From: Sinohyriopsis cumingii
Taxonomy: Eukaryota > Mollusca > Bivalvia > Unionida > Unionidae
NCBI GenBank assembly: GCA_028554795.2
Contig: CM068825.1
Span: 90,578,951 to 90,642,950 of the forward strand
Reading direction: 5' to 3'
DNA: 64,000 bases
Under the pieces are notes generated by a model. That model ran no database searches. It worked only from the letters and a program-made list of their open reading frames with translations, and was not told the DNA's origin. Of this stretch, positions 991 to 39,600 are shown piece by piece (position 1 is the stretch's first letter; each line of letters begins with the position of its first letter). The translations under genes were made by a program, and so were the position numbers.

Positions 991-3775
991 TAAAAATAAT
1001 AATAATAAAAATAATAATGAAGACTTTGTATAGCGCCTAATCTTTAGAAGCTCTAAGCGCTTTACAACATTAGACAACACCTATAAGATAAGAAACATAA
1101 CAATATTATTACAAAAAGAAACAACATGAAATTAGAAAAACATTAAACAATAAAAAACATGCTGAAAATATTTCAGGTAGGAAACATTATTAGATCTTTA
1201 AGTTTGTTCTTGCAGTCAAAATAAGTCAGTTTTGAGAGCCCTCTTGAATGTGATCACTGTGTCTTTGTGTCTAAGTTCAGTGGGCAATTCATTCCACGTT
1301 GCTGGGCCCTGGTATGCAAAAGAACGCTGTCCACATAACTTTGTTTTCATACGTGGGAATAATGAGTATACAATTGTCAGAAGAGGAGTGTAAGTATCTT
1401 GCTGGTGTGTACACATGGGTGAGGTCAGATAGGTATGTTGGACTAGAGTCCGACGGTGAAATGTAGCACAGAGAACAAATTTTGTGTTTGATTCTGGATC
1501 GAATGGATAGCCAGTGTTGGGTACAGAGCAGTGGGGAGGTGCGCTCTGTTCGTGGTACTCTAAGGATGATCCAAGCTGCTGTGTTTTGAACTTTCTGAAG
1601 TTTCTGGAGTAGATATTGAGATGAACCAGACAGAATTGAGTTACAATAGTCCAGTCTTGAAAGTGCTAATGAACACACAAGTGTTTTAGTGGCATCAACT
1701 GAAAGATATTTGCGAATTGAGCTGATGCGTCTCAGCTCAAGATATGCAGCCTTGCATATGTTCATGACATGTTGGTGCAATGTGAGAGTACTGTCCAGAG
1801 TAACACATAGGTTTCGTACTGATTGTGTGAATTTAATGTTGGCGTTGCTGATATTTATTGTTTGAGGTAAAGAATGTGAATAAGAAAGTCTTTGTGTCGT
1901 GATCAGAATGGCCTTGGTTTTATCATCATTCATCTGCAGCTTGTTACATGTCATCCATGATTTCACATCAGAAATGCACCTCTCTAAACCTTGGATGGTA
2001 GCATCAACTTCAGTTGCGTGGCTAGATTTGTATATTTGGGTGTCATCAGCGTACAACTGGTGAGACATTGGATGATGATCTATGACATTTGAGAGCGAAT
2101 GAGTGTACAGAATAAAGAGAACAGGTCCAAGAACAGCCCCCTGTGGAACACCACAACATAGATCAACTGGGCTGGAGTGTATTCCATTTGCAGATACAAT
2201 TTGTGTCCTGTTGACCAAGTAGGACTTGAACCACAGTAAGGCTGTATCATGAATGCCAAATACATGCTGGAGACAGTGAAGTAATATATCATGGTCTATT
2301 GTGTCAAACGCTGCAGACAAATCAAGGAGGGTGAGGACTGTAATCTTTCCGCTATCCAACGCAGAGAGAATGTCATTAGCTACTTTTAGAAGAGTAGTTT
2401 CAGTACTGTGGCAAGGGCGATATGCAGATTGTACATTGCTAAAAAGACTATTTGAATTTAGATGAGATACAAGCTGGGATAGAACAACCTTTTCTACGAT
2501 TTTTGAAATGAATGGAAGATTAGAAACTGGGCGGTAGTTCTTTAAATCGTTATGGTCTACTGTTGCTTTCTTCAGCAGAGGCTTTACAATGGCAGTTTTG
2601 AAAAATTACGGGAATTCCCCAGATGAGAGAGAGGTATTAATAACATCAGTTAGTGAAGGTAACACTGGATCTAAGCACTCAAGCAGCAGTGATGTTGGAA
2701 TTGGATCAAGTGCACATGACTTTGGTGCACTCTTCATCATGATTGTACGTACGAAATTCATAGAGACAGGTTCAAATGCTGCTAATGGTTGCCGCTCAAA
2801 TTCTGTATCCCAACTGTATGGTGACGACGAGTCAATTGAAATTGTGGTGTCAAGCTTATCTCTAATGGTTTGTACTTTGTCATGGAAGAAATTTGCAAAC
2901 ATGTCCGGAAGGTCGACTGGAGAGAAGGTAGTTGGAAGTGGTGTTGATTTGTTCCTTGACATTAGCTTTTTAGTAATCTCGAAGAACTCTTTGCAGCTGG
3001 AACTTCCCATGATCTTAGTAGTGTAGTGGGCTGATTTCGCTGCATGGACTATATTTGTGACATTCTTCTTAGCGACTTCATAGATTTGCTTATGAATAGT
3101 GAGTCTGGTGGAAAGCCAGAGCCTCTCAGCTTTACGGCGGTCTCTTTTAGCAGTGCGAAGCTGGTCCCTAACACTGCTATACCATGGAGAACACTTTTGA
3201 ATTGATACTCTGCACTTGGTAGCTGGGGCATGTTTGTCAAGTAATGAACGCAGACAGTTATCGAGTTGTTCTGCGGTAGGAGGTAAGCAAGTTGTTAGGT
3301 TAGCTTGGATGTCGTGTATTAGTTTGGTTCTATTTATCATATGGAGGTTTCTCTTAGTAGCAGATAAAGGTGGAGGGTTAGGGACTGATACGTCAAGATG
3401 ACATATAATGCAGAGGTGATCTGATGCAAGGTCATGGGATACCAGGGAGGACCATAGAATGTTATCATCAGGTCTATGAAGAATCCAGTCTAAAATGTGA
3501 CCATGTTTATGGGTGGGTTGGTTAACTGACTGTTTGAGGTTGAAAACGTTAATGGAATCTATGAGTTTTGATGTATTTGAGTTTCCGGGACAGTCAAAGT
3601 GAAAGTTGAAATCTCCAAGAATAATCAGGTTGCCACCTGTCGAATTTCCATAGTCCAGAAGATTCGGAAACTGCTCCAAAAAGAGAGAGTCAGCCAGCTT
3701 GTTTTATCTACTAGGAGGAGGGTGGTATAGGCAGAAAAAAAATGGACTGACCTTTGCTCCAGTGTGATTGTGGTT
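991..3775 (-). mobile_element. L2/CR1-group non-LTR LINE, 5'-truncated, decayed
   Basis: Read on the minus strand, this holds the second half of an apurinic endonuclease domain (LIILGDFNFHFD at about 3600, SDHLCIIC at about 3400). A reverse transcriptase follows: NYRPVSNLPFISKIVEKVV near 2500, DLSAAFDTIDHDILLH near 2310, GVPQGAVLGPVLF near 2130, YADDTQIY near 2030. The C-terminal block is SFAYQGPATWNELPTELR near 1300, with the stop at 1216. The 3' UTR ends in a GTAAAGCGCTT / GGCGCTATA motif and a (TAA)n tail at about 991-1018, typical of L2-like LINEs. One in-frame stop (2606-2608) and a frameshift near 1360 break the frame. The start of ORF2 is missing, so the copy is dead. Confidence 0.92.
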
Positions 3776-18600: not shown

Positions 18601-21600
18601 CATTGCTGGGGGGGGGGTGGCAATTTCAACACAAATTTATTTCATTTCTTAAGTCTTGGGACACATGACCTAGGTGAAAATAAGTTTCACCATATTTTCT
18701 GAGACAGGAAAAAAATTAATTATTTGATTCTGTCCCAATATATATGGTAAATATAGTATGCAGTATGCGAAACCTTGCAAAAAACATACCTCTATCTGCA
18801 TCATGGCACGCTCAACATGACGTTTGCTGCCCACTTCCATGCTGGATCTCTGGTAGAGTGCTGCTACACAGATGCTCCATCTTTTGGCTTGTGGCAAGAC
18901 ACACTGAATAGTATAATAATTCACAACTTTAAAACATTCATGAAGTTTGGAATATTTTAAAAATAAATGCTATTAAATATGTTTTTCAAAAAGTATTGTT
19001 TTACAGGTCAAAGAATATCCATCTCAGACAAGTGTGTTGTTTTCATGGCAACTGATCAAAGACATATAACGGCCATAAGAAAAATACCCTTTTGATGACA
19101 TTTTTAATAATGAAATTAACATATTATTAGTCTTTAATTTAAAGCAAATGTGTGTGTGTGTGTGATTTGTATTTTTAACCTTGCTTTTTCAATTTTTCAG
19201 TCATATCGCTATGACATCTGCAGTGTGGCAGTTAATAGTGATGTCTAGCACTGGGGCATCATGCCGCAGACATGTAGCATCATGTCACACCCAGTCACAT
19301 TATCCTGACAGCAGGCCGACCAGTCCTAACACTAACCTCTTAATGCTGAGCACCAAGTGTGGCAACTGCTAGTACCATTTTTATAAGTCTCTGGTATGGT
19401 TTGGCCGGAATTTGAACCTCCAACTTCCCACATTTAAGGTGAATGCTCTAACAACTTAAGGCACCGGAGCGGTATTTATTCAATGCATCTAATTAAAGTA
19501 TTGGATGATTTGTTTGAAGCACTGCTCAACTCCATGCCATGGCAAAGCAATCCTTAATATTCTACCTTCTAACAGGTCTGTACATCTCTACCTAAAAAAT
19601 GAATGACTGAATAGTATTGGCCCTGTAAGACCCTGTATAAAGCTGTATGTACAAAATGTATGAGACTGAATAAAACAGGCACTGTAAGACTGTATAAAGC
19701 TTGCTGTATGTACAAAATGTACGAGACTGAATAAAACAGGCACTGTAAGACTGTATAAAGCTTGCTGTATGTACAAAATGTATGAGACTGAATAAAACAG
19801 GCACTGTAAGACTGTATAGAGCTTGCTGTATGTACAAAATGTATGAGACTGAATAAAACAGGCACTGTAAGACTGTATAAAGCTTGCTGTATGTACAAAA
19901 TGTATGAGACTGAATAAAACAGGCACTGTAAGACTGTATAAAGCTTGCTGTATGTACAAAATGTATGAGACTGAATAAAACAGGCACTGTAAGACTGTAT
20001 AAAGCTTGCTGTATGTACAAAATGTATGAGACTGAATAAAACAGGCACTGTAAGACTGTATAGAGCTTGCTGTATGTACAAAATGTATGAGACTGAATAA
20101 AACAGGCACTGTAAGACTGTATAAAGCTTGCTTACAATAGTTCCTATAAAATGTATGAGACTGAATAAAACAGGCACTGTAAGACTGTATAAAGCTTGCT
20201 TACAATAGTTCCTATAAAATGTATGAGACTGAATAAAACAGGCACTGTAAGACTGTATAAAGCTTGCTTACAATAGTTCCTATAAAATGTATGAGACTGA
20301 ATAAAACAGGCATTGTAAGACACTGTACAATGCCCATTTTGCCAAGGTAAAGTGCTGTTACAAATTTACTAGATTAATAAACAATTTTGTTTAGTTATTT
20401 AAGTACTTTACTTGAAATTCACATTTAGATTTAAAAATCCACATTTGGTCAACATTATGTGATCTAACCTAACCAATGAGTTTTTGTTATTTTCTAAATT
20501 AGGTTGTGTTTAGGTTGTGTTAATGCAAACTTATACATCCTAACTTTACAATAATCAATCCTGATGGAACAAGATTCTGTTATGTGTCCATGTGATATAA
20601 AAATTGGAGGGGGATGCAACAAGATAGTAAGTTACATCCATGCTTGACATGATTGTTTCCATCATAATTCTCTGTAATCTTCCATGAAATGAGATATGAT
20701 TAAAACAATACATTTATATTTTAAAAAATCGTATTTTATTGTTTGTATAGAAAATATTCACTCAGTCTGGATCATTTGTACCTGCTGTATATACTTGCTT
20801 GTAAGTTGAGTCCATCTGCAAATAACATAGGTCCTGATCTACCATCACATAATAAGCCAGCAGATCAAGGTCTATGTTGTATGTTCTCCTGATTACTCCT
20901 AACAAACTGCATAGATCTGCTAACACATTATGCAACAGCAGATCTGGATCTGTTCAATATGTGGTTTGACTCATCTTACAAGCGAGTATATACAGTACTA
21001 CTTCCACAAATGTATATATATTTATAGTATGAACACAATTTTTGAGTTTTTAAGTTATTAGTTAATTTTTCTCCAAATTATTTGGACTCTCAAAGAATAA
21101 TTAGTTTCTCTGGAAATATTATTGTATTCATACAGAATTGTTGAACAAGGACATTTATTGAAAACTGTTTCAATTTCCAAGACTGGAGGATAAATTATTG
21201 TGTTTGTACAAGGAACTGTAGATGTCAACACAGTACAGGCTACAGCATACGTCATCACCTTCCATCTTGGATTCTTCGTCAGGACTCAAACTTGAAATCA
21301 CTAGAACATTTCAATATTAGGACTGCAAAATCTTATTTGTGGATTATTCTTGTATTAATTTTGCATTCGATTCTGGAAACCATAAGTTCTATTTTTTGGT
21401 TTGTTTTTACAGTATTTTTCCAGGGAAATAAATTATTTGTTATCTTTTTCAAAGCTTGTTGTTTTCACTCTTTCTTGTGTTACTGTTTATTCGAGCCTAA
21501 ACACATAACATAAGACCAGATTTTGCCTAAACAAAATGGTACATATATACTCAATTATAGGCACATTATTCTTCAGTATATATGGAATATTCTGTGCAAT

Positions 21601-24600
21601 GTTTAATTAAGGAGACTGATCAATCAAAATTTAACTAAATTATGGTGAAAGATGCAAAGTTCAACTAACCATAAGTAACTCCCACTAAATTACCTTGCTC
21701 TGTACCAATAACAAATAATTTATGCATGGTTATGAGAACTCTCAGTCATGAGAAACAAATATTTTAGTGTCTGCTTTCTAGAATGTATACAAAAAATGCT
21801 AGGATTACATCAGTCTTAAATCAACCACTTCTCCACTCTTTAAAAATGGTAATTTTTAAAAAGCTCTGCTCCTTTTTTGGTGAGAATATATAAATAAAAT
21901 TACAAACACCAAGCAACGTAAGAAATATAAATTTTTAACATTCACTGCAATGAATTTTCCTAGGTGAAATTTTAATATGCAAGCTATTAACTCACTGAAA
22001 TCATGCCCAATAAATTAATTAATAAATAAATTCAGGGATAAATGAACAAACGGAATAGGACAAGAAAGAAAAATGACACATCAATTCTATCAATACAATA
22101 ACAAGACAACCATGGTACAAAGACATATTTGCGAATCAAAATTGTTTAAGCAGTGAAGAAAGTTCAAATTTCACTCTGCAAATTATACAGATTGTATCAG
22201 ATAGGCATCAATCTGTATCAAGTTATTGCACAGAAAATATATACTTACAACCAAAGCTATTTTTGGTTGCATCAAAAAGGCTCACTACAACTGGCTTAAT
22301 AGTAATATCAGGAAATATGGACTTTTAAGCATCATGACCCTCTAAATGATGACATGGAATGCTTGAAGTAAATCCATCAAGGTTTCATCAATAGTGGCAA
22401 CATTCCAGGAAAAGATCTGATTGGCAGGGGCCATAGCTCTGTTCTAAATTGTGTAGAGGAGTCTAAACCCACAAACGGCACATCTAGATTTAGGAGACAA
22501 AGTTCTTATCGAATTTCAAAATTGAATATGTTGAATGGTTCTTGAGCTATGTTGACTACAAGCAACTTTCCAATCTTTCATGCGAAGACAAGAATTTTCT
22601 TGACAAAGAGCATAACTCTGTCCAAATTAGAGAAGAGGACACAATGAGAAAATCCATTTAAAAAAATCACCTTTATCTCTGGAAAAAAGGGCAAAAACTT
22701 CATAAAAATTAGACTGGAAAAGACGAAACACTTAAAATACACATGTAACAGACCATTCATCTAACACAAGGCATCCTATTATGGATGTGCATATGACTAG
22801 ACACAAAAGATAGTTACTATATGACTGATACACAAAGGCCATAAAATATTGGGATGCATTATTTTTTATGATCTGTTCTGGATTTAATGAATAGAATAAA
22901 ATAAACTTACTGAGAGATAGGCTTCTACTTCTTCATGGAGTAAATTATCTTCACTGGCAACATGACTGTGAATGTGTTCCTCCCTAAAGAAAAGTTTACC
23001 AAAGTTAAAATGCATCAACTTTATAGAATTTTTCAATATGTCTTAAGTGACCACCTATATAAAATAACCATCTGTGATTAAAGGTCAATTACAAAAGGTT
23101 CCATCTTGAGACATATCAATATATATTTACTGGTATTAAAAAACAAAGTTCCTAAGAAGTTCTTCAAAATGGGAAATTACTTACTGGTTTCTGACTGCAT
23201 GAAGTATGAAGTTATTAATGAATAAATAAGACCATGATTGTAACTGCTTTCTAAAGTGACAGGAAAAACATAAAATATTCTGGCCATGAGCAAGAAACAT
23301 TGTATTGGAAATGATACAATAAACAGCAAATTGATGTTTACTAAATCCATAACATTTGTACTGAATATCAAATCTAAAAATAATTCTAAAATATAAACAG
23401 GTTGATTTGTGCAAATATTTCACATACAGTTCCATTCATATATCAAGCTTAGATTGTACATGCATATGTACTACACTATGTGCATCTTTCTTGATATATA
23501 TTATATTGGAAAAAATGAAATGCTGATGTCAAATAAATCTTTGAAACCCTTAACAACTGTAACAACTCTTTCAGTGGTGATTGATATTACCTAAATTTAG
23601 TCTGTGGTACAGAGTGGTGGCTGATATTACCTAAATTTAATCTGTGGTTCATGGTGGTGGTAGATATTATCTAAATTTAGTCAGTGGTACATAGTGATGA
23701 CTGATATTACCTAAATTTAGCATTTGGTTCATAGTGGTAGCTATTACCTAAATTTAGCATTTGGTTCATAGTGGTAGCTGATATTACCTAAATTTAGTCT
23801 GTAGTTCATGGTGGTAGCTGATATTACCTAAATTTAGTCTGTGGTTCATAGTAGTGGCTGATATTATCTAAATTTAGTCTGTGGTTCATAGTGGTGGCTG
23901 ATATTACCTAAATTTAGTCTGTGGTTCATAGTGGTGGCTGATATTACCTAAATTTAGTCTGTGGTTCATAGTGGTGGCTGATATTACCTAAATTTAGTCT
24001 GTGGTTCATAGTGGTAGCTGATATTACCTAAACTTAGTCTGTGGTTCATAGTGGTGGCTGATATTACCTAAATTAAGCATTTGGTTCATAGTGGTAGCTG
24101 ATATTACCTAAATTTAGTCTGTGGTTCATAGCGGTGGCTGATATTACCTAAATTTAGTCTGTGGTTCATAATGGTGGCTGATATTACCTAAATTTAGCAT
24201 TTGGTTCATGGTGGTAGCTGATATTACCTAAATTTAGTCTGTGGTTCACAGTGGTAGCTGATATTACCTAAATTTAGTCTGTGGTTCATAATGGTGGCTG
24301 ATATTACCTAAATTTAGCATTTGGTTCATAGTGGTAGCTGATATTACCTAAATTTAGTCTGTGGTTCATAGTGGTGGCTGATATTACCTAAATTTAGCAT
24401 TTGGTTCATAGTGGTGGCTGATATTACCTAAATTTAGTCTGTGGTTCATAGTGGTGACTATCACCTAAATTTAGCCTGTGGTTCATAGTGGTGGCTGATA
24501 TTACCTAAATTTAGCATTTGGTTCATAGTGATGGCTGATATTACCAAAATTTAGTCTGTGGTTCATGGTGGTGGCTGATATCACCTAAATTTAGTCTGTG

Positions 24601-27600
24601 GTTCATAATGGTGGCTGATATTACCTAAATTTAGTCTGTGGTTCATAGTGGTGGCTGGTATTACCTAAATTTAGTATGTGGTTCATAGTGGTGGCTGATA
24701 TTACCTAAATTTAGCATTTGGTTCATAGTGGTAGCTGATATCACCTAAATTTAGTCTGTGGTTCATAGTGGTAGCTGATATTACCTAAATTTAATCTGTG
24801 GTTCATAGTGGTGGCTGATATTACCTAAATTTAGTATGTGGTTCATAGTGGTGGCTGATATTACCTAAATTTAGCATTTGGTTCATAGTGGTAGCTGATA
24901 TTACCTAAATTTAGTCTGTGGTTCATAGTGATGGTTGATATTACCTAAATTTAGTCTGTGGTTCATGGTGGTGGCTGATATTACCTAAATTTAGTCTGTG
25001 GTTCATAGTGGTGGCTGATATTACCTAAATTTAGTTTGTGGTTCATAGTGGTGGCTGATATTACCTAAATTTAGTCTGTGGTTCATAGTGGTGGCTGATA
25101 TTACCTAAATTTAGTCTGTGGTTCATGGTGGTGGTTGATATTACCTAAATTTAGTCTGTGGTTCATAGTGGTGGCTGATATCACTTAAACTTTATCTGTG
25201 GTTCATAGTGGTGGCTGATATTAAATAAATTTAGTCTGTGGTTCATAGTGGCGGCTGATATTAAATAAATTTAGTCTGTGGTTCATAGTGGTGGCTGATA
25301 TTACTTAAACTTCATCTGTGGTTCATAGTGGTGGCTGATATTACTTAAACTTCATCTGTGGTTCATAGTGGTGGCTGATATTACTTAAACTTTATATGTG
25401 GTTCATGGTGGTGGCTGATATTACTTAAACTTTATCTGTGGTTCATTCAAACAAACTTTGCCCCAATTTTCATTTGCAGAAATTTGCTTAAAACATTTAT
25501 GGTTTAAACAATCTCTGAACAGTCTCTGAAAATAACTGATATCAATTTAGTTCTAAGAAGTGATTCAAATTGGTAAATTATCATTCCTGATAATTAATCC
25601 TTGAACAGTGTGTTACATGAGGTTTATCTTACAACAACATCTACATAATATCATGACATCCGTAACTTCTTACAGCCATTAAAAATCACATCTATCTACC
25701 CTTATAACCTCAAGTCAAACAAATATGTCATGCGGTCTAGTGATCTAAAAGAATAACATAACCATTGTTATGTGCAAAATTTGAAGTCACTTTATAATAT
25801 ACAATTTAAATTTTGGTATATTAAAACACATTAAGTTGACATCATTTGGTAAAAACAATATATACTGTACTAAATATATAACAAAGAAAAAGTAAAAAAT
25901 TTGTGGTCTCCTGATATATATAGTCAATATATGGAATCTTTCATTCAGAAATAGTTGACCATAGGACAGTCCTGGCCACTTTACTTGCCCTTTCTTTACC
26001 TTTCTAACCAATGTGACAATGTAGCCAACAGTACAGTTTACTTTTTCCACATTTTTACAAGCAGATTTGGAATTAGTAAATGGTTAAAAGTTTGACGATT
26101 TTGTTAGGTTTTCACAATGGAAAGGGAATCCCAAGCTGTGTTTCTGTGTGGTTTCTATGTAGTTCAAAGATTTCAGTATGACTAATATCTGTGGTAAAAA
26201 TGCAAGCTTTGGTCAGCAGCCAGCTTGAGATGGTACTAACTCAATCTTTTGGTCAGTAACCAGCTTATGTTGGTACCATAAAGTGCTACACCAGCAAATG
26301 AAGCACTAACTGCATCTTTTGAACTGTCTGTATTTTGGATGTATGACAGGAGGCTTGATCTTAATGAATTTACTCTGAAATACAGGAGGATTAATGGATT
26401 AGACAATTTTTTGGTAGCATACTGAAAAGCCAATGTCATTTGTCTGAGATTAAGTCATGGTTCATTTTACTTCAGCATCAATGATTTCTGAAGATTAAGT
26501 TCTAACTGACCAATGAGGCCACTGGTCCACTCTTTTTTAAGGGCTGGAACTAATGGTAGTGTTGTGTTCCTCATTTATCGACCAGTTACTCTGATTTACT
26601 GTGCTTTCTGCTTCACTTATTGAGTGGCTGATTACATGAGTTTGTGAGGCACCAAGACTATAAGTTGGTCTTGTGCTGTGGCCAGGAAATGTCTGCCTGA
26701 GAATAGACACATTTTGTGGAGGATTTTTTTGTCACTTGAGCTGCATTCGTAATAGAATTTTCCAGCAATATTAAATGGCTTCATAAACTATTTGGCCTCA
26801 GGGAAGCTAAGGCATTTCTCCTATATACCCACTTACCCTTTTCATGCTCCACTTAGAGCAGTCGCTAGAGCAAAAGTGGTTGCCCTGCCTATTCACATTT
26901 GGGATTTTTTCTTTCTCCATGATTGCCCATTGTGGCACTCCCATCCACATCTGGGGTTTTATGATTTTCTCTTGTAGTGAACTTTGTGGTGACCATATTT
27001 GTGGTGGTTCAAGCACTACAAGGGATTAGAGATGAAAGGGTCTACTGGAACTATGATCAAGCAAAGTTGCAAATTCAATCATCAATAACTAAGTTTTGGT
27101 GAGAACCAACTTGTTGTTTTGGTAAATGTTGATTAATTTAGTTTGGACAACATAGGTTTTCATCTATTGTGGGCTCACTGTAGCCATAAAGAACCAACAA
27201 CATCTCTACATGGTTTCAGAGACTTATGCAGAGATACTTTGTTGGGGATCTCCACAAACTGCTTTGTGTAAGCAGATTATCAGAGTGAGCTTCACAGCTG
27301 CACACTGCTTGTAATTGACCTGAGCTGAGGTTTAACACTCTTTGGCTCTCCATCCAGACCCTTAAGGAATTTTGTTATAAACTTGGTTGTGGGTTACATA
27401 ATGAGAAAATGCAGGCAATTGCCTTGACTTAGAACAGTTTCTTTATCCAAATCAAGGGTCAATTTATTTCTGGTTCATTTTTATTGGGGTGGCCAAGTGG
27501 TCTAAGGCCATTGTCTACACAAATCACATACATATTACTTCTATCCACATGAGTTCAAGCCTTGCTATGGCCAATGTGGGTATACAAGATAGCTTGCCAG

Positions 27601-30600
27601 TAAATTCCCATGTGTTGGAGGTTCTTTCTGGGGTCTTGGTGGGTTATTCTTCCACTAAATATACTGGCCACCATGTATAGTCTATCATGTGCTGAAAAAT
27701 GTCATTTAAATCCACAAAACTGAAAACCTAGTAGACCAGGCCTTCCATTATGGTTTGTTTGGCATGTTTTCCCATAATGGAAGAAAATTATTTCATTACC
27801 TGAACCTCCCACACTGCCCTGGAGCCCAACAAAGGGACAGAGTGTTATTCTGCTTTATTGTATTTATCATGTCAGAGCTATTACTTGAGTCTTGAGTAAT
27901 TTAGAATGCTTCCTTGACTGACCACTGCTGCCATCCTCATAGGCCATGTTGTTTGTAATGTTTCCAAATTAACAGTATCAGTTTTCCTAAATTGTAATAG
28001 TGACCTTTTCAAGTTAGGAGACGTAAGACAACTGAAGCTTGACATGACTAGACAATTGATCAGACTGGGCCTTTCTGATTGCCATCTAACCTGAAGCTGA
28101 GATTTAAGTAGTGTTTTGGACTGTAATGGCAACAACCTAGCCTCACCTCTGCTCAACTGCCAGGATCATCTCCTAAACTGACATGCAGTGCAACTCATTA
28201 CAAAGAGGTTTCCTGTTTATTGCCTTGCACAACATGTATGTGGGAGTATCAAGACTATTCTTCATCGCCAAGTCCAGGGTGATGGCAGGACTTTCCTGTT
28301 TAAATTTCAAATAAACTTCCAAGAAATTATGCATGACACGGACTATACCCTTACATGCTGGCTAAAATGACAGCTTGTTCTATGGCACTAAGGTTTGGTA
28401 CGAGTTCCAGGCTCTTGTCTTCAAAACTGATAGAATCCATCAATGTGTCATCATCCAACCTCAGCACCTGCAACAGTCAATTATAGAAGGTTATGCAAAT
28501 AAACATTATGGCCTACCTAGACTGCAGTAACATGCTCACAAGGCACTTCTGAGTCTCAGCTTTGATCCCTGCACTTGGATTGTGAGAGGGTCATCAATCC
28601 TAAGTTAATGTTCCTCTATACTATGTCTTCCCACCACAAAAGTTAATTACCCCACTATACTATGTCTTCCCACCACAAAAGTTAATTGCCCCTCTATACT
28701 ATGTCTTCCCACCACAAAAGTTAATTACTCCTCTATACTATGTCTTCCCACCACAAAAGTTAATTACCCCATGGCTACTGATCAGGGTCTATGTTGATTG
28801 CAGTTGGACTCGACTTATAACTGAATATATATGATACTATATACCATCAGGCAGGCAATGGATAGCACTGAATGGCTTATAATACAATAATGTTAGACAG
28901 TTATGTGCAAAACTGTGATGAAGACAGAGCAAGACTTAGAACAAGCTTTTGTTTGAACAACATGTCCTCCCCCAGCCTCAATGCCACTTGAAGTTTAAAA
29001 AACTTCATGAAAATTAGAAAATTATTCCAATGGCATGAAAATGTTTCAATGTCAGGCACTTATGCATTAACATGTCTCCCAAATGTCATTTGTCTCTAGT
29101 GTTTTTTTTCTAAAATAATTTTTTTCAAACCAAAAGTGCAAAATCCAAAACATTAAAAAAAAATTCAACACATACAAAAAAAAATTCTATAATGGACTGA
29201 AAATCTTAAAGGTCCTCTACATACACAATAATAAAATAAGCCATTTTCTTTGGTCCACCTCAAGTGGGTTTGTCTAAATTGTGCTAACAAGGTTCTTCAC
29301 AAAAATAATAGTTTTATGAAGTAGTAAAAAAATGTGTAAAACAATACAAATTGATATATTGGCCTGAGAATCTAATCAAGTCATCAGTATATAAATTTAA
29401 ATAAGTTACCAAACTGTACTTACAAGTCCGTTTCAAAAAGGGTCTAAATGCACAAAGTTCAAAAAGCTGGCAGCCTTTCTGTAATGATCTGAAATTCTAA
29501 TCAGGTCAACTACATACTGATGCAGATATGGTACTAATATTGAATGTGTCTATGTTTAATAGTCTGTGTGCGATCCTGTCACAAGATGTTGGGACTGATG
29601 GACAGATGTACTAACAGATGGAATGGCATGACCAAATGAATATGTTCTCCATTTCAAGGGATGGGAGCACATAAATAGATGTATACTCCCCACTGCTGCA
29701 AGTGATGGGCAACAATCCCCTACATTCATTTATCACCTATGAATGCATGTGTGTAGATTTCCTCATTTCTCAAGAATATGTACAAAGCTGATAAAACAAT
29801 CACTGTGAGTATAAGCAAAACTTCCTTGTCACTGTGACCCAACATCAACTGTCATACTCTTTGAATGAGCCAATCAAAGTTTCTCTTTCTAACACGGTTA
29901 AGTATTGACACAATGATCATTTTTTCACTGATGTGTAGAAGACTGTTACACTGTGTCCTTGATGACGTATTTTTTTTCATGCATTCTCATGAAAAGTTAG
30001 GAAATCTCTGCATAAGCAGCCACAAATGACAAAGAAGCACAGCAGATTTACAAATAACTTTATGTAAAAAAAATACTTCTCCGAGTTCAGAAAACTAGAA
30101 GAAATTACTCCAATGATATAAAGGCACAAGGAAAGCAGTCACGATGATGACATAGAATCTGGTACCAATGTCTCTATGCTAGGGGAGACCACTCTAGTAT
30201 GACAGAACTGGGCAAGTGGATGACCTTTTGGTGGCACTCCACAGTTATGTAATCTGCATAGAGTTACATATTTTTTAGAAAAAGAATTTCCCCAATTTAC
30301 TTCAATGGTTATTCTGGCTATTTAAAAAATACCCTGTATATCTTAGGTATTATTAAAGAACTTTTATTTTGGTGTATGATTAATGGGTGTAATTGTGTTA
30401 CTGAATCAAAGGATAGGCCTTACTTCACATGTGCACTAAACATGGAGACCAGTGTAAAATGGAATAAAAATCAGGAAAACCCCCCTGTAAGAACCACCCA
30501 TCCATGGGAAGCTACTGGCAAGTTATCTCACATGCCACATTAATGGAGCCCAAGACTCAGACCTACACAAACAAGTGAATAGCAGTGATTGGTAAAGGTG

Positions 30601-33600
30601 AGTGCTTTAGACCAATTGGCCACACAGGTCTCTGATGTCATGCTCCTATGTGACTGCAGGCAAGAGTATCAAAGAAACTTAGCAAACACAAAACCAAATC
30701 TACAGACACTAAGCTCATCATACACAGGTAAATCAATCATGAAATATGTCACAGTGACCTAATTTTCAATAAGGGCTGTAGTACTTCTATGGAAATATTT
30801 ACATATAACATCATGTGGCTCTAAAAACAATAGCATCTGAGAAAATGACATAAATGTAAACCCTATCCTTAATGTTTATACCAGACATGTGGATGGATGG
30901 TTTGATAGATGGACAGATGCCATCAATCCGTAAACCAGAATCACTTTGCAATCCAGCCCATAATACTGCAGTCTCCAGTGGCAAAAAAAGACTTATGACA
31001 TGTCTTCAACCCATCGCCAGATCCCAACCTCTACCAATGCAATATAGGAATGCCAGCGTTATAAAAAACACTGAATCTGAACATCAAACTGGAAAACTAT
31101 GAATTTAATTTAAAGTATTAAATATAATTTAACAAAGTTTTTCTGTTGGAGTGTGCTTCCTAGTCATCTTTCCCACCATGTAACATGCATAATTCCATCT
31201 AGATGAAGTGCATGGTATTCATTCCAATGTTAATACCTTTCATATTCCAATTAGAATGTCTGTATCACAAATCTTTTTATCAAGTTATAAGCCTCATTGG
31301 TCACTTTCAATTGGACATCTTTCTTTAATTTTCTCAGATGGACCAGATGTGATTTTTATTTGGCAGTATTCAACTGTCAAACAAGTTCTTAAGTGTTCCT
31401 TAGCAACTGTAGTCAGGCATAACAAGCATTTCTAGATGTATTGGTGATCATATTGCAGTTCACCTTAACAAAGTTATATCTGACCTGAAAATCAGAATCT
31501 GACAAAAGTGGTAGTGGTGTAATTTGAGGTCAAAAATAGGAATGATTCTGCCACAACTGGAATGGTTGGCATATCTGCTGCACACACTAATACACACATG
31601 CAAAATGAAAGGTATTATCACACAGTCTTGTTCTTGTTTTTTTCCCCGAAGAAGGTTGGGATGATTAAAAAAGTTACATATACCTTAGGCAGATATTCTG
31701 GTAGTTGGGCTGTCAAAGTTTCAGTGCTGAGTGGCTGGCCAGTACCCTCCCTGCTGACATTCAGAATTAGCTGTGCCTTGCTCTCCTGCTGGAACCGTGT
31801 TCGTTTCCCCATGGCACCTGAAATCCAATCCTCAAGTGAGTAGAAAAAGGTTTAAGTTTTCACAGGCCTGTTAGTGGTGCATTAAAAAGACTTGCACTTT
31901 CTCAAAGGGCAACTGTTGGGTGGGATTCTGACCTTGTACCTTCAGATTATCAGCCTACAGTGCCTACCCCTAGGGCCAAACACATTATTATAGGTCATGG
32001 AAATGACAGCTGGCATCTCAATTAGATAAGCTGTTTTAGCCTAGACAATCAACATGCAAGTCACTTTTGCCAAACAAGTGAAACCAAAAGAGAGATTAAC
32101 CAAACAATAAATAACATGTAAACTGACGATGCTAGTTTTATCAATCTGCTATAAAAATTAATCAAATTTAAATTATTGCATGATTACAATGTTAGAACAC
32201 TTGTTTGGATATTATGTATGTGACATCAGTGTTTGCATAAGTATAGGCATGACGACTTCTGAGTTAACATCACTATCAGCATAATGTTCTGTACATGTTT
32301 TTTTTTTTGTTTCCATATGTATCATCATGATGTTCTGTACATGATTTCAGTGTTTCCATAGGTATCATTATGATGTTCTGTACATGACTTCAATGTTTCC
32401 ACATCATCATGATCATAAGTACACGACCAATGTTTCCATATCATCATGATGAGACTTCAAAGTTTCCAAAAGTATAATCATGCTATTATATAACAAAGAA
32501 ATATAACACAAGTGTTTTCATGGTCATGTAATTTTTTTTAAAGTAAGCCCATGATGAAGGAAAAAAATTTCAAAATTTTTTTTAACGGAAGAAAGATCAG
32601 TGGTTATGATGCAGATGAAATACTGTAATTCATAATATTCAGTAAAAATTATCATTTCCAAATTTAGAAACTTTAAAAAAAAACCAAAATTTTCTACATT
32701 ATCAGTTGAAAATATGTGAAGTAAAGACACTGAAAATGTAAACTGAAAATATGTGATTTAAACTTTTCACATATTTCCAGCTAAAAATCTGTCTATTGAA
32801 CAGTGACACACCAGAATATTTTTCAAGATGCATTACCTTTAAAAGAATAAGTCTATGCTGAAGTACAGTTCTGTACTTAAAATCATGTAAGCCACACATA
32901 ATGTCCTGTTATTTGTTGTACACATGTTTAAATGATGACTAAAATATGTACAGTTTCACTTTAATCCTTCAAGGTTGTGAAACCTGTTACCTTTCATAGA
33001 TTATGATGGACAGAAGGATGAACATGAGGAATCCTATATGCCCCAGCCTTAAATGTGCGAGTATAACAAGAGTACCTCAAAAAGATTTACAATTTAGTGG
33101 TCATGAAGAATTTCCAGGAATCCAAGATAAATCCGTTTAATTTTTTGTAAACTGCTGTCAGAGTACTGACACCATCTCTGACATACCTGAAAAACTTCAA
33201 CATACCAAATTTAGTAACAAAAATATTTTCTTACACTTGAGGTAACACTTTTACAAGATAAATTTAAGTGCAGTATAAAATTCTATGATAAGGTCTTGGA
33301 TCATGGCAGAAAGATCAACAAATTTGTCTCCAACAATTTTGAGATAAAACACACATGCTAAGTTTGGTTAAATCTACACATAATATTTTGGGGAAAGAAA
33401 AACCACAAAGTTTTTGAAGTGGTATCATTCAAGGTATTTTTTCAAATATATCTACAAATTAAGTTAAACGACAAAAATCGATTCATATTTGTTTGTGTTA
33501 TCATACTCACAAGATGGTACAGCTAAAACATGTGTCAAGATCTTGGACTTTAAAGTCATGTCAGTGCTGAATATGAATGCAACTAAATATAAAGTCTGGT

Positions 33601-36600
33601 CAAAATTTTACTACATAATTTTATTTACAAGTCACTGTGTTCATAAACCATGTTTTCATAAATCTATAATTAAGTATTTTTGGGGAGAAAAAAACCAAAG
33701 TTATTTAAGTGGGATCATTCAAGGTGTTCAAACTTTAACAAAAAACCATTCATACCTGTTTGTGTAATCATACTCTCAAGCCAGAACAGCTAAAACTATG
33801 TGTCGAGATCATGTACCTTGAAATTAATGTTGGAGTGCTGACAATCAACGCAACTACATACAAAGTCCTTGGACGTGAAAATCAATTCAGAGTGCCGATT
33901 ATAAATGCAACTACATACAAAGTCCTTGGACCTTATAATCAATTTCAGTGCCGATTATAAATACAATTAAATACAATGTCCTTGGACGTTAAAATCAATG
34001 TCAGAGTGCAGACTATCAACTTTCTGTTTAAGATGCAGCAAAATACAAAGTCCAATCAAAATTCACTTGAATATGTACAGGTTACAGTGTGCATAAACTC
34101 CATGAAGTACAAATGACTTAACTCCAAAGTCAATTAGGCTGATCTTCATCAAAATGTGGATATATCCTATCTGCACTGTTTTCATTCACAGAAAAAAACA
34201 AAACAATTTATGTTGTACAAAAGTGTCAAAGCCAACATTCATTCAAGAGTAGTGGTGACAACAAGCTTTTCAAGATGGCCACAACATTTGCCATGATCAT
34301 GATGAGATAAGAACCATTTTTGTTCAGAAACAGTTATGTATTGCAATACTGGCCATATGGGTCATCCAACCGGCACTATGTTCATTTAGGTCACACAAGA
34401 CACAATATGAAATCTTTTGGTGAAAACTCCATTTTGCTAAGCTCATCCACTTAGAAGAAGGAGTGATAACAAGACTTGGCAGCCATTTTGCAGGTCAAAT
34501 CAGCCCCATTTTCATTCAGGACTAAGTAGACACAAGAAATCTTTTAGTAATTACAAATGTCAATTATCAAGAAGAGTAGAAAAACCAAGATGTTGGACGT
34601 TATATCAGCACCACTTTCATGTAGGACCAATTAGACAGTGTAAGAACCTATGGTATATATAGTTATAAACCAAGATCTCCCAATATATAACCACCTTTTC
34701 TGATTGGAATTACCTGCTAGTTCCACAACTAGTCCTGTCATTTTTAAGGCTGTGTTAACATGGAAATACCTGTTAGTTCTACAACTAGTCTGTCATTTTT
34801 CTGACTGTGTTACTATGAAAATATCTGCCAGCTCCACAACTAGTCCTGTCATTTGTATGGCAGGGTTAACATGGAAATACCTGTTAGTTCCACAACTAGT
34901 CCTGTCATTTTTATGGCCGTGTTAACATGGAAATACCTGTTAGCTCCACAACTAGTCCTGTCATTTTTCTGACCATGTTAACATGGAAATACCTGCTAGT
35001 TCCACAACTAGTCCTGTCATTTTTATGGCTGTGTTAACATGGAAATACCTGTTAGTTCTACAACTAGTCCTGTCATTTTTCTGACCATGTTAACATGGAA
35101 ATACCTGTTAGTTCCACAACTAGTCCTGTCATTTTTATGGCAGTGTTAACATGGAAATACCTGTTAGTTCCACAACTAGGCCTGTCATTTTTCTGACCAT
35201 GTTAACATGGAAATACCTGTTAGTTCCACAACTAGTCCTTTCATTTTTACGGCAGTGTTAACATGGAAATACCTGTTAGTTCCACAACTAGGCCTGTCAT
35301 TTTTCTGACCGTGTTAACATGGAAATACCTGTTAGTTCCACAACTAGGCCTGTCATTTTTCTGACTGTGTTAACATGGAAATACCTGTTAGTTCCACAAC
35401 TAGTCCTGTCATTTTTCTGGCAGTGTTAACATGGAAATACCTGTTAGTTCCACAACTAGGCCTGTCATTTTTCTGACCATGTTAACATGGAAATACCTGT
35501 TAGTTCCACAACTAGGCCTGTCATTTTTCTGACCGTGCTAACATGGAAATACCTGTTAGTTCCACAACTAGTCCTGTCATTTTTATGGCAGTGTTAACAT
35601 GGAAATACCTGTTAGTTCCACAATTAGGCCTGTAATTTTTCTGGCAGTGTTAACATGGAAATACCTGTTAGTTCCACAACTAGGCCTGTCATTTTTATGG
35701 TAGTGTTAACATGGAAATACTTGTTAGTACCACAACTAGTCCTGTAATTTTTCTGACCGTGTTAACATGGAAATACCTGTTAGTTCCACAACTAGGCTTG
35801 TCATTTTTCTGACCGTTCTAACATGGAAATACCTGTTAGTTCCACAACTAGTCCTGTCATTTTTATGGCAGTGTTAACATGGAAATACCTGTCAGTTCCA
35901 CAACTAGGCCTGTCATTTTTCTGGCAGTGTTAACATGGAAATACCTGTTAGTTCCACAACTAGTCCTTTCATTTTTATGGCAGTGTTAACATGGAAATAC
36001 CTGTTAGTTCCACAACTAGGCCTGTCATTTTTCTGGCAGTGTTAACATGGAAATACCTGTTAGTTCCACAACTAGTCCTGTCATTTTTCTGGCAGTGTTA
36101 ACATGGAAATACCTGTTAGTTCCACAACTAGTCCTGTCATTTTTCTGGCAGTGTTAATATGGTCCTTGGCCTTCCTATAGTCAAAAAACATGTAGCTGAG
36201 AAAGGCAGCCTCCAGGTAAAAGTGAATGATCAGATCTCTGCAATAAATAAATTAAAAAATTACACCATACTTCAACCTAACCTATCAAATACAAAGCATT
36301 AATACAAATTTTATTGCCAGAATTATTTTCAATACAAATTTTATTACCGGATCTTAATAATTCCATTCTTCACAAAACAATTTTTTCTATTACAAAAGCT
36401 CCATTATATTTACTTGAACTTCCTCGAGATAACTGACCCTATGGCTAATAAGTGACTATATTCAATGACCCTACTATGATTCTTATAATGCAGTATTCAT
36501 TTCCAATCGCAACCAACCCAACTACATACAAGAGATTGACTATCCAATAGCAATCCATGGTATCCAACCCAACTACAAGAACTAGACTGAAATCTAAAAT

Positions 36601-39600
36601 AGATGAATTTTCCTGAATCATGACTATAGGCAAAAATCTGATGTTCAATTTTCACAATACACTGATTACATCTATATACATTTAATCCTTTAACTAATTA
36701 GCAATTTAAAATTTTAAGGCCATTCAAAGTACAATTTTAAAAGATGACCAGAAATTATCTCTGTTTGATGTAAAATTATCCCGACCTGTTGTAATTAAGG
36801 CAAAAGGTAAAATTATACTGACCTATTGTAATTAATATATGATGTATAATTATACTAACCTACTCTAATCAAGGCACAATGTATAATCTTACTGACCTAT
36901 TGTAATCAAGGCATGCTATATAATTATACTAACCTATTGTAATCAAGGCAATGTAAATTTATCCTGACCTATTGTAATCAAGGCATGCTATATAATTATA
37001 CTAACCTATTTTAATCAAGGCAATGTACAATTATCCTGACCTATTGTAATCAAGGCAATGTACAATTATCCTGGCCTATTGTAATCAAGGGATGCTATAT
37101 AATTATACTAACCTATTGTAATCAAGGCAATGTACAATTATCCTGACCTACTGTAATCAAGGCATGATGTATAATCATGCTGACCTATTGTAATCAAGGA
37201 ATGATGTATAATTATCCTGACCTATTGTAATCAATGCATGATGTATAATTATCCTGACCTATTGTAATCAATGCATGATGTATAATTATCCTGACCTATT
37301 GTAATCAATGCATGATGTATAATTATCCTGACCTATTGTGATCAAGGAATGATGTATAATTATCCTGACCTACTGTAATCAATGCATGATGTATAATTAT
37401 CCTGACCTATTGCAATTAAGGCATGATGTGTAATTATACAGACCTGTTGTTATCATCTGTCATCAAAGGCTCTTTTTTCTGCACTGAAATAAAGGACATT
37501 AAATAATATAATGTATATACTTACAAGTCAGGACCAAACTGAATGGATTCAGATATGTAGATACATTATCTAATGTCAGATCAGGGTCTATATTGTTTGT
37601 AGTTAGGCCTGATTTATAAGTGAGCTTAGACAGTACTTTTTTACACACATTTACTGAGAGAAAAAATATGATAATGTGCTATCAATCGTGTAAAACCAGA
37701 ACTAATAATAATGGGTGCATCACAAACAGCCCTGTTTCTGTTTAAACCTAACTTAAGACATGTTTTGGTCTTCCATAAAAAAACTGAATTTTTTAAGGGG
37801 TGTTTGGGATCCTCCCCCAACAGGATCTCGAGGGGCAGCATATTTTATACTTATAAAAAACTGCTCCTGGTGCAACTTATCATAAAAGAAACCCCAAAAA
37901 AATCATCTGAAAAACTAATAAACTTACCAAAAATGTTCAACATGACTTCAATAATTTCACAACATTTATAGTTACATGAATTTGTTCTCCAATACTATTG
38001 AAGCTGAAGTTATTTTGTGTGCATGTCAGTGTTCATAAGGGTCGTTATGGAATGGGAGCGGACACACCGTTCTTAAAAAACCACATCAGAAATGATATAA
38101 AGAACGGACTATATCAAAAACATCTGATTCAAGTCAGGAGAAAAGAGGAATTCTGCTTTGAAATGGAGAAAAATCATGTCTGTAATTTTGAATCTTCTAT
38201 CCCTGAAAACTCGGTACTAATTATTTTTGTCACTATACATTTCTACTGTATCATTTAAGACTCATTGCATTTAAAAGTTTAAAAGTATAGCCCTTACAGG
38301 TATTACCTGTCCCTGATATACAATAACCTAAATAATATGTCTAAATCTTTTTGTCAAAGTTAGAAGGCTCTGCAATGATCTGATCACCTGGCAAAAAATG
38401 TGGGTGATCAGTATGACCTACTCAGAAAGCTCTAGTAGTAATTCTTGGTTGAACACATTATAACTGGTTAATTAATATTTTCTGTCTCGTTCATCATCTA
38501 GAACATTAAATAGAAAACTAGATCCCTTCTTGTATTTTTGGTCACAATTTAGAATCACATGACGTACACAACCTGTCGTATTTACTTGAAATGACCATGC
38601 AGCTGATACACATGTACTTCAGTGGCTGGTGAGCATATTTTAGAATGATGTCACACATAGCAGTAAACTTAAAATTGTGGGTAATTTGGACAATCTTACT
38701 CTTCATTAATTTTAACTGCAAATTTCAAGACTTTGCTTGGAGTAATTTAACTGAAAAGAGATGGTTTTTAAGCTACATAATGTTCTACAAAAGATATTAC
38801 AAATTTTAATTTTGAAGATTTTCTCCAAAACTAACCTTTAAATAGAGGAATTTGTTTGGAAAACAAGGTCTGGAGAACAGTGGCATTCAGCATTCAGGGA
38901 TGTAAATGACACCATGGAATGTTAAAAATCCAGGCAACATCCAATGTATGAAGAAAAAAAAGATGTGAAACTGATTGACAAGGACCATAACTCTGTCTAA
39001 AATGGAGCAAATGAGACACAGGTCTGAAACAATGTTCACATCAAATTGAATCAGAATATGTTCAATGTAATTAGCATTCCACGTGAAGATATAAAGATGA
39101 CTGACAAGAGCCATAACTCTGTAAAAATTGGTTTTGATGAGGCAAAACTCATAAAATGCACATCAAGATTTAAAAGACAATGTCCAAGAAAATTCCATCA
39201 AAGCTGGTTCAATGGTGTTTAAGCTATAATTACAAACATCATTCCAAGTTTCCATGTGAAGATAAGAATAAGAACAAATAAGTTATATCTCTCCAGATTG
39301 GAGTGGATGAGACTAAACTCATACAAGGCACATTCAAGTCGATGAGACAATGTTCATACCATATTTCATCAGAATATGTAAAATGGTTCTTGAGCTATGC
39401 AGGTTACAAACAACATCTCACATGATGACATGAACTTAATTGTCTAAGGTCATGACTCAGTATGACAAAAGTCCATCGGAGTTGCACTCTACTGGCCAAA
39501 ATGAATTTCAAAGAATACAAGAACAGACTAATTCTTACTTTTTATTTTCAATATGGCTACTGTAGAGACCATAAAAGATGTCAGATCAGCACCATTTTTA

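Follow-up and report, generated by a model that had tools for sequence, protein, structure and literature searches.

A tandem array that repeats the end of an exon together with its own splice donor lies in the TTC27 homologue of the bivalve Sinohyriopsis cumingii, within the window examined here (the whole analysed stretch of 64,000 bases). This raises two questions, namely how such an array came into being and which of its many donors would be used when the transcript is spliced.

The TTC27 homologue and its repeated exon end

The gene was identified with a human TTC27 probe. With this probe, tblastn returned ten exon matches, which run collinearly along the minus strand between 48111 and 8690 and display 35 to 67% identity to the human sequence. 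Eight of these ten had E values below 0.001, those at 28476 (E 0.042) and 10216 (E 0.072) being weak alone, and six more weak rows outside the array (E 1.1 to 4.2) were set aside as chance matches. The exon from which the array extends, exon 7 in the numbering of the initial annotation (Table 1), reads DLIIHFYLEAAFLSYMFFDYRKAKDHINTARKMTGLVVELTG and matches the probe at 36239-36111 (E 4e-7). It is separated from exon 8 by an intron of about 4.3 kb, and joining 36236-36113 to 31817-31684 gives ELTG-AMGKRTRFQ with the frame unbroken. The ten collinear matches and this in-frame join bear out the assignment to TTC27 made in the initial annotation. No Pfam family scored above the cut-off in either the piece comprising exons 7-8 or that comprising exons 11-13; a TPR match was absent from exons 7-8, and exons 11-13 gave TPR_8 with an E value of 0.00037, yet under the Pfam cut-off. 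Searches against the PDB returned no match for exon 7 alone and 35 matches up to E 10 for exons 11-13; the 15 matches of the latter piece below 0.001 were without exception TPR and PPR proteins that had been designed, engineered or built as consensus sequences.

The existence of the array is beyond doubt. Its 56-bp unit consists of the last 50 nt of exon 7 followed by GTATTT, the start of intron 7, and 25 extra copies were counted, in agreement with the composition and the approximate number (about 25) given by the initial annotation. TRF reported a period of 56 at 34705-36162, with 26.1 copies, 90% matches and a score of 2363. The unit ends are spaced by 56 bases in 24 of the 25 intervals and by 55 in the other, one extra copy having a 1-nt deletion and one copy lacking the GT. 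The GT is hence present in 24/25 extra units, that is, in nearly all of them, as had been claimed. Over the nine donor bases, these units read CAG/GTATTT (22 units), CAA/GTATTT (one), CAG/ATATTT (one), and CAG/GTAATT (one). As in an exon-boundary minisatellite, the array starts in the exon end, the donor is repeated, and the unit combines exonic and intronic bases. Elsewhere in the 64-kb window, blastn aligned at best 12 nt of the unit (E 0.77), and an exact 28-nt pattern from the unit was found neither in viral_contigs nor in genome_contigs (0 occurrences in each), as expected for an animal. A higher-order repeat of 112 bp was considered for units 1-22 but not retained; lag 2, one among six lags, gave P 0.033, and adjacent units resembled each other less than after shuffling (lag 1, P 0.976).

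Table 1. Positions in the window of exons 7 and 8, the unit copies and the sites mentioned in the text
Feature	Position	Strand	Remarks
TTC27 exon 7	36113..36237	minus	125 nt; acceptor TTGCAG; 3' end ACTAACAG
CCAT	36159..36162	minus	left edge of duplicated segment
Exon 7's own unit copy	36107..36162	minus	50 nt of exon end plus GTATTT
25 further unit copies, head to tail, in intron 7	34708..36106	minus	directly 3' of exon 7's own copy; TRF
First intron base per unit	36056, then each 56 bases to 34824, then 34769, 34713	minus	A replaces G at 34824
Common premature stop GAA AAA TGA, first extra unit	36081..36089 (TGA 36083-36081)	minus	counted on sequence
TTC27 exon 8	31684..31817	minus	acceptor TTTCAG/GTGCC

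As judged from the unit sequences, the array derives from exon 7. The 25 intronic units have a consensus that equals the exon copy at 55 of the 56 columns; the differing column lies directly after the CCAT junction, and unit 24 retains the exon's base there. With that column left out, the exon copy, unit 1, and unit 13 were jointly closest to the remaining units (mean of 3.12 differences). Because, in addition to this identity, low distance and retained base, the encoded peptide agrees with human TTC27 and exon 7 joins exon 8 in frame, the exon is considered the ancestor, so that the earlier proposal of exon capture withstood the comparison of units to exon. The CCAT of the left edge also occurs at the first unit junction, and the array's right edge bears CCA (TTCCAATCAG), which suggests a founder duplication between short matching CCA(T) ends. 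An age gradient along the array was considered and rejected; the distance to the exon copy increased with unit number when all 25 were counted (rho 0.48, P 0.014, the first column being excluded), whereas units 1-22 gave no significant increase (rho 0.28, P 0.20), so that the signal is due to the degenerate far end.

Contact between an array and an exon end is unremarkable, as the window is rich in minisatellites, with 16 arrays covering about 10,100 of its 64,000 bases (hand-picked from TRF, with about 4 copies or more, dinucleotide runs excluded and the exon 7 array included). Random placement of one founder unit per array resulted in at least one of the 20 exon-match ends being straddled in 18% of the trials, with 10% for the ten donor-side ends, seven exons having splice-site ends and three bare tblastn limits in this model, in which unfound exons would raise the figure. 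A second period-56 array (33850-34016, 2.9 copies) occurs in the same intron, where the exon-derived unit had no blastn match. Other arrays are a 40-bp one of 47 copies (23573-25446), located after the exon match that ends at 28355 and before the one that starts at 18903, and a 37-bp one of about 19 copies (36766-37455), upstream of exon 7. The window also contains, at 1292-3703 on the minus strand, a retroelement that is non-LTR by make-up, with matches to an endonuclease (PF14529) and a reverse transcriptase (PF00078) in two open stretches that have a stop between them.

Donor strength, predicted transcripts and selection on the units

The exon 7 donor is of moderate strength, its duplex with the 5' end of U1 amounting to -7.2 kcal/mol versus -14.0 kcal/mol for the consensus. 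Among the seven donors of the gene that were examined, it is joint strongest by duplex energy and ranks sixth of seven by a frequency matrix. The initial annotation had spoken of nearly perfect donors throughout the array; this is right relative to the exon's own donor, as 22 of the 25 extra donors match it at all nine bases and stand in near-identical exonic context, but not relative to the consensus, given the moderate strength of that donor itself. Of the 179 GT sites in the rest of intron 7, 8 are at least as strong as the exon 7 donor according to the matrix, and 4 according to duplex energy. Since other DNA of the window contains about 3.5 donors with at least the matrix score of the exon 7 donor per 1.45 kb, the array donors represent a real excess that the spliceosome must ignore. 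Predicted accessibility provides no advantage for the first donor (0.016, compared with 0.003 to 0.115 for the array donors).

The possible products were obtained by joining exon 7 plus k units to exon 8 in silico (k = 0 to 25), whereby the join for k = 23 is formal only, the end of unit 23 having lost its GT. Only k = 0, corresponding to the first donor, keeps the frame open (ELTGAMGKRTRFQ). All 25 later unit ends yield one premature stop (LTGISMLTLPEK followed by the stop), irrespective of copy number, every form with k = 1-25 reading GISMLTLPEK and then the TGA of the first extra unit. The earlier argument that a unit length of 56, not being a multiple of 3, would let a frame shift decide the outcome is wrong in detail, because every distal form meets this same TGA. 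All distal-donor forms would thus encode one truncated protein and, with six further exons identified downstream, are likely targets of nonsense-mediated decay.

Regarding selection, 18 non-synonymous and 6 synonymous distinct changes were found in the exon-derived columns, with 99 and 36 possible, respectively, so that there is no visible protein constraint on the intronic units. Units 1-22 show no variation in any of the ten intronic columns (P 0.0098), whereas exon-derived columns do vary, and the longest invariant run is 14 (P 0.027). Over all 25 units, four of the ten intronic columns vary (P 0.36) and the longest run is 4 (P 0.92). The 9-nt donor is not significantly conserved in units 1-22 (P 0.11) or in all 25 (P 0.23). 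As the last three units were left out only after they had been inspected, selection on the donors is not claimed.

Origin and probable handling of the array

The best explanation, to which a probability of about 75% is attached, combines a founder duplication and its expansion with a dominant first donor, low nonsense leakage and an array that is mostly a tolerated passenger. A 56-bp segment over the exon 7/intron 7 boundary was duplicated in tandem, with short CCA(T) matches as the probable endpoints, and the array then grew to 25 extra units, presumably by slippage or unequal exchange. The first donor, being the sole one that keeps the frame, would supply nearly all functional TTC27 mRNA. 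By analogy with ABCA7 and IFI6 of human, one or two units directly following might act as low-level donors giving a premature-stop transcript that is probably destroyed, and the remaining units would mostly be removed as intron. The array is most likely tolerated because the first, true donor would still do the work; it may represent mostly passenger DNA, the length of which could slightly tune TTC27 output. Dominance of the first donor, with rare nonsense leakage into the next units, is a prediction, as is the splicing behaviour of the array in general. In classical experiments in vitro on competing equal donors, the one closest to the acceptor is reported to prevail, which counts against first-donor dominance. 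The frequent skipping of the next exon in ABCA7 implies that a dominant canonical TTC27 transcript is not assured, and the distal preference in CBS 844ins68 may be said to be a counter-example to a simple first-site rule.

Alternatively, the array may be a length-dependent regulator, the donors of which compete for U1, with copy number setting the share of premature-stop and exon 8-skipping transcripts and the TTC27 level. The many donors that match the true one and have almost its exonic context, the nonsense character of each distal form in the in silico joins, and the association of ABCA7 repeat length with exon 19 skipping and lower expression (PMC5954066) speak for such a role. It is nevertheless unlikely, as unit retention in ABCA7 is independent of length (same source) and the donor columns lack significant conservation over all 25 units. 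A copy-number rheostat, whereby about two dozen donors would divert a length-dependent share of transcripts to the one nonsense form and the invariance in units 1-22 would reflect selection for working decoys, is judged distinctly improbable.

There is a slight chance that the copy number, or a portion of the array, reflects an assembly artefact; tandem arrays are often miscounted in assemblies and 7 of the 25 units belong to three groups of identical copies, but 21 distinct units are present among the 25, the period is maintained and both flanks adjoin unlike sequence. Recursive splicing would use the unit ends CTAACAG/GTATTT as acceptor plus donor, the array being removed stepwise with the donor restored and no trace left in the mRNA. 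CTAACAG/GT does occur in most units, which places a branch-like motif just upstream of AG/GT. However, the 21 nt through this AG contain 8 pyrimidines, versus 10, 12, and 14 at the acceptors of exons 8, 9, and 7, respectively, and the branch-like A is too near the AG, making this scenario scarcely credible. The locus is a natural test bed for the choice of the spliceosome between 23 donors of one sequence (the real donor plus 22 copies), which share a near-identical 50-nt upstream context and differ mainly in their distance from the acceptors on either side.

Comparison with human CBS, ABCA7 and IFI6

The layout is already known from a few human genes, namely CBS, ABCA7, and IFI6, the grouping of which is our own. 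A search confined to the open-licence literature gave no direct match for a tandem minisatellite as splice donor at an exon-intron boundary. The 31-bp VNTR of CBS is reportedly described in a primary paper by Lievers et al. 2001. It is designated c.1444_1467+7(16_21), by name 24 exon and 7 intron bases in 16-21 copies (PMC2630376), and is tabulated as 'exon 13-intron 13' (PMC1395315). The TTC27 unit likewise spans an exon end and an intron start, and the CBS units too vary by single bases. In contrast, the TTC27 unit measures 56 bp instead of 31 bp, and length polymorphism is shown in CBS, whereas TTC27 is represented by one sequence. The TTC27 case shares the anatomy of CBS, but with a longer unit. 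In the CBS 844ins68 variant, a splice-site region is duplicated, and PMC2630376 describes a strong preference for the more distal site; it terms these sites donor sites, whereas the title that it cites says 3' splice site.

The VNTR in intron 18 of human ABCA7 starts at the exon 18 donor and has a 25-bp unit from the donor GT, with 23.7 copies in the reference and alleles of up to 9711 bp, and is linked to disease (PMC5954066, as for all that follows on ABCA7). Use of its next donor, through which one unit is kept, results in a nonsense transcript amounting to 2 +/- 1%, alike in all tissues measured, and the nonsense forms increase with cycloheximide. Repeat length tracks exon 19 skipping, the extent of which varies between tissues (12 to 45%), as well as lower expression, whereas unit retention is independent of it. 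The TTC27 unit differs in carrying 50 exon bases, none being described for the ABCA7 unit. Both arrays begin at an exon's donor end and repeat its GT from unit to unit (in TTC27, in 24 of the 25 extra units), with similar copy numbers (25 versus 23.7).

The minisatellite of human IFI6 (6-16) is said to have a short unit and to give coding isoforms. Two of its downstream repeat units serve as donors, as stated in PMC4526556, citing Turri et al. 1995. Similarly, the TTC27 minisatellite would supply multiple splice donors, the use of which is a prediction, and the layout reported from human in the cited papers is now extended to another animal.
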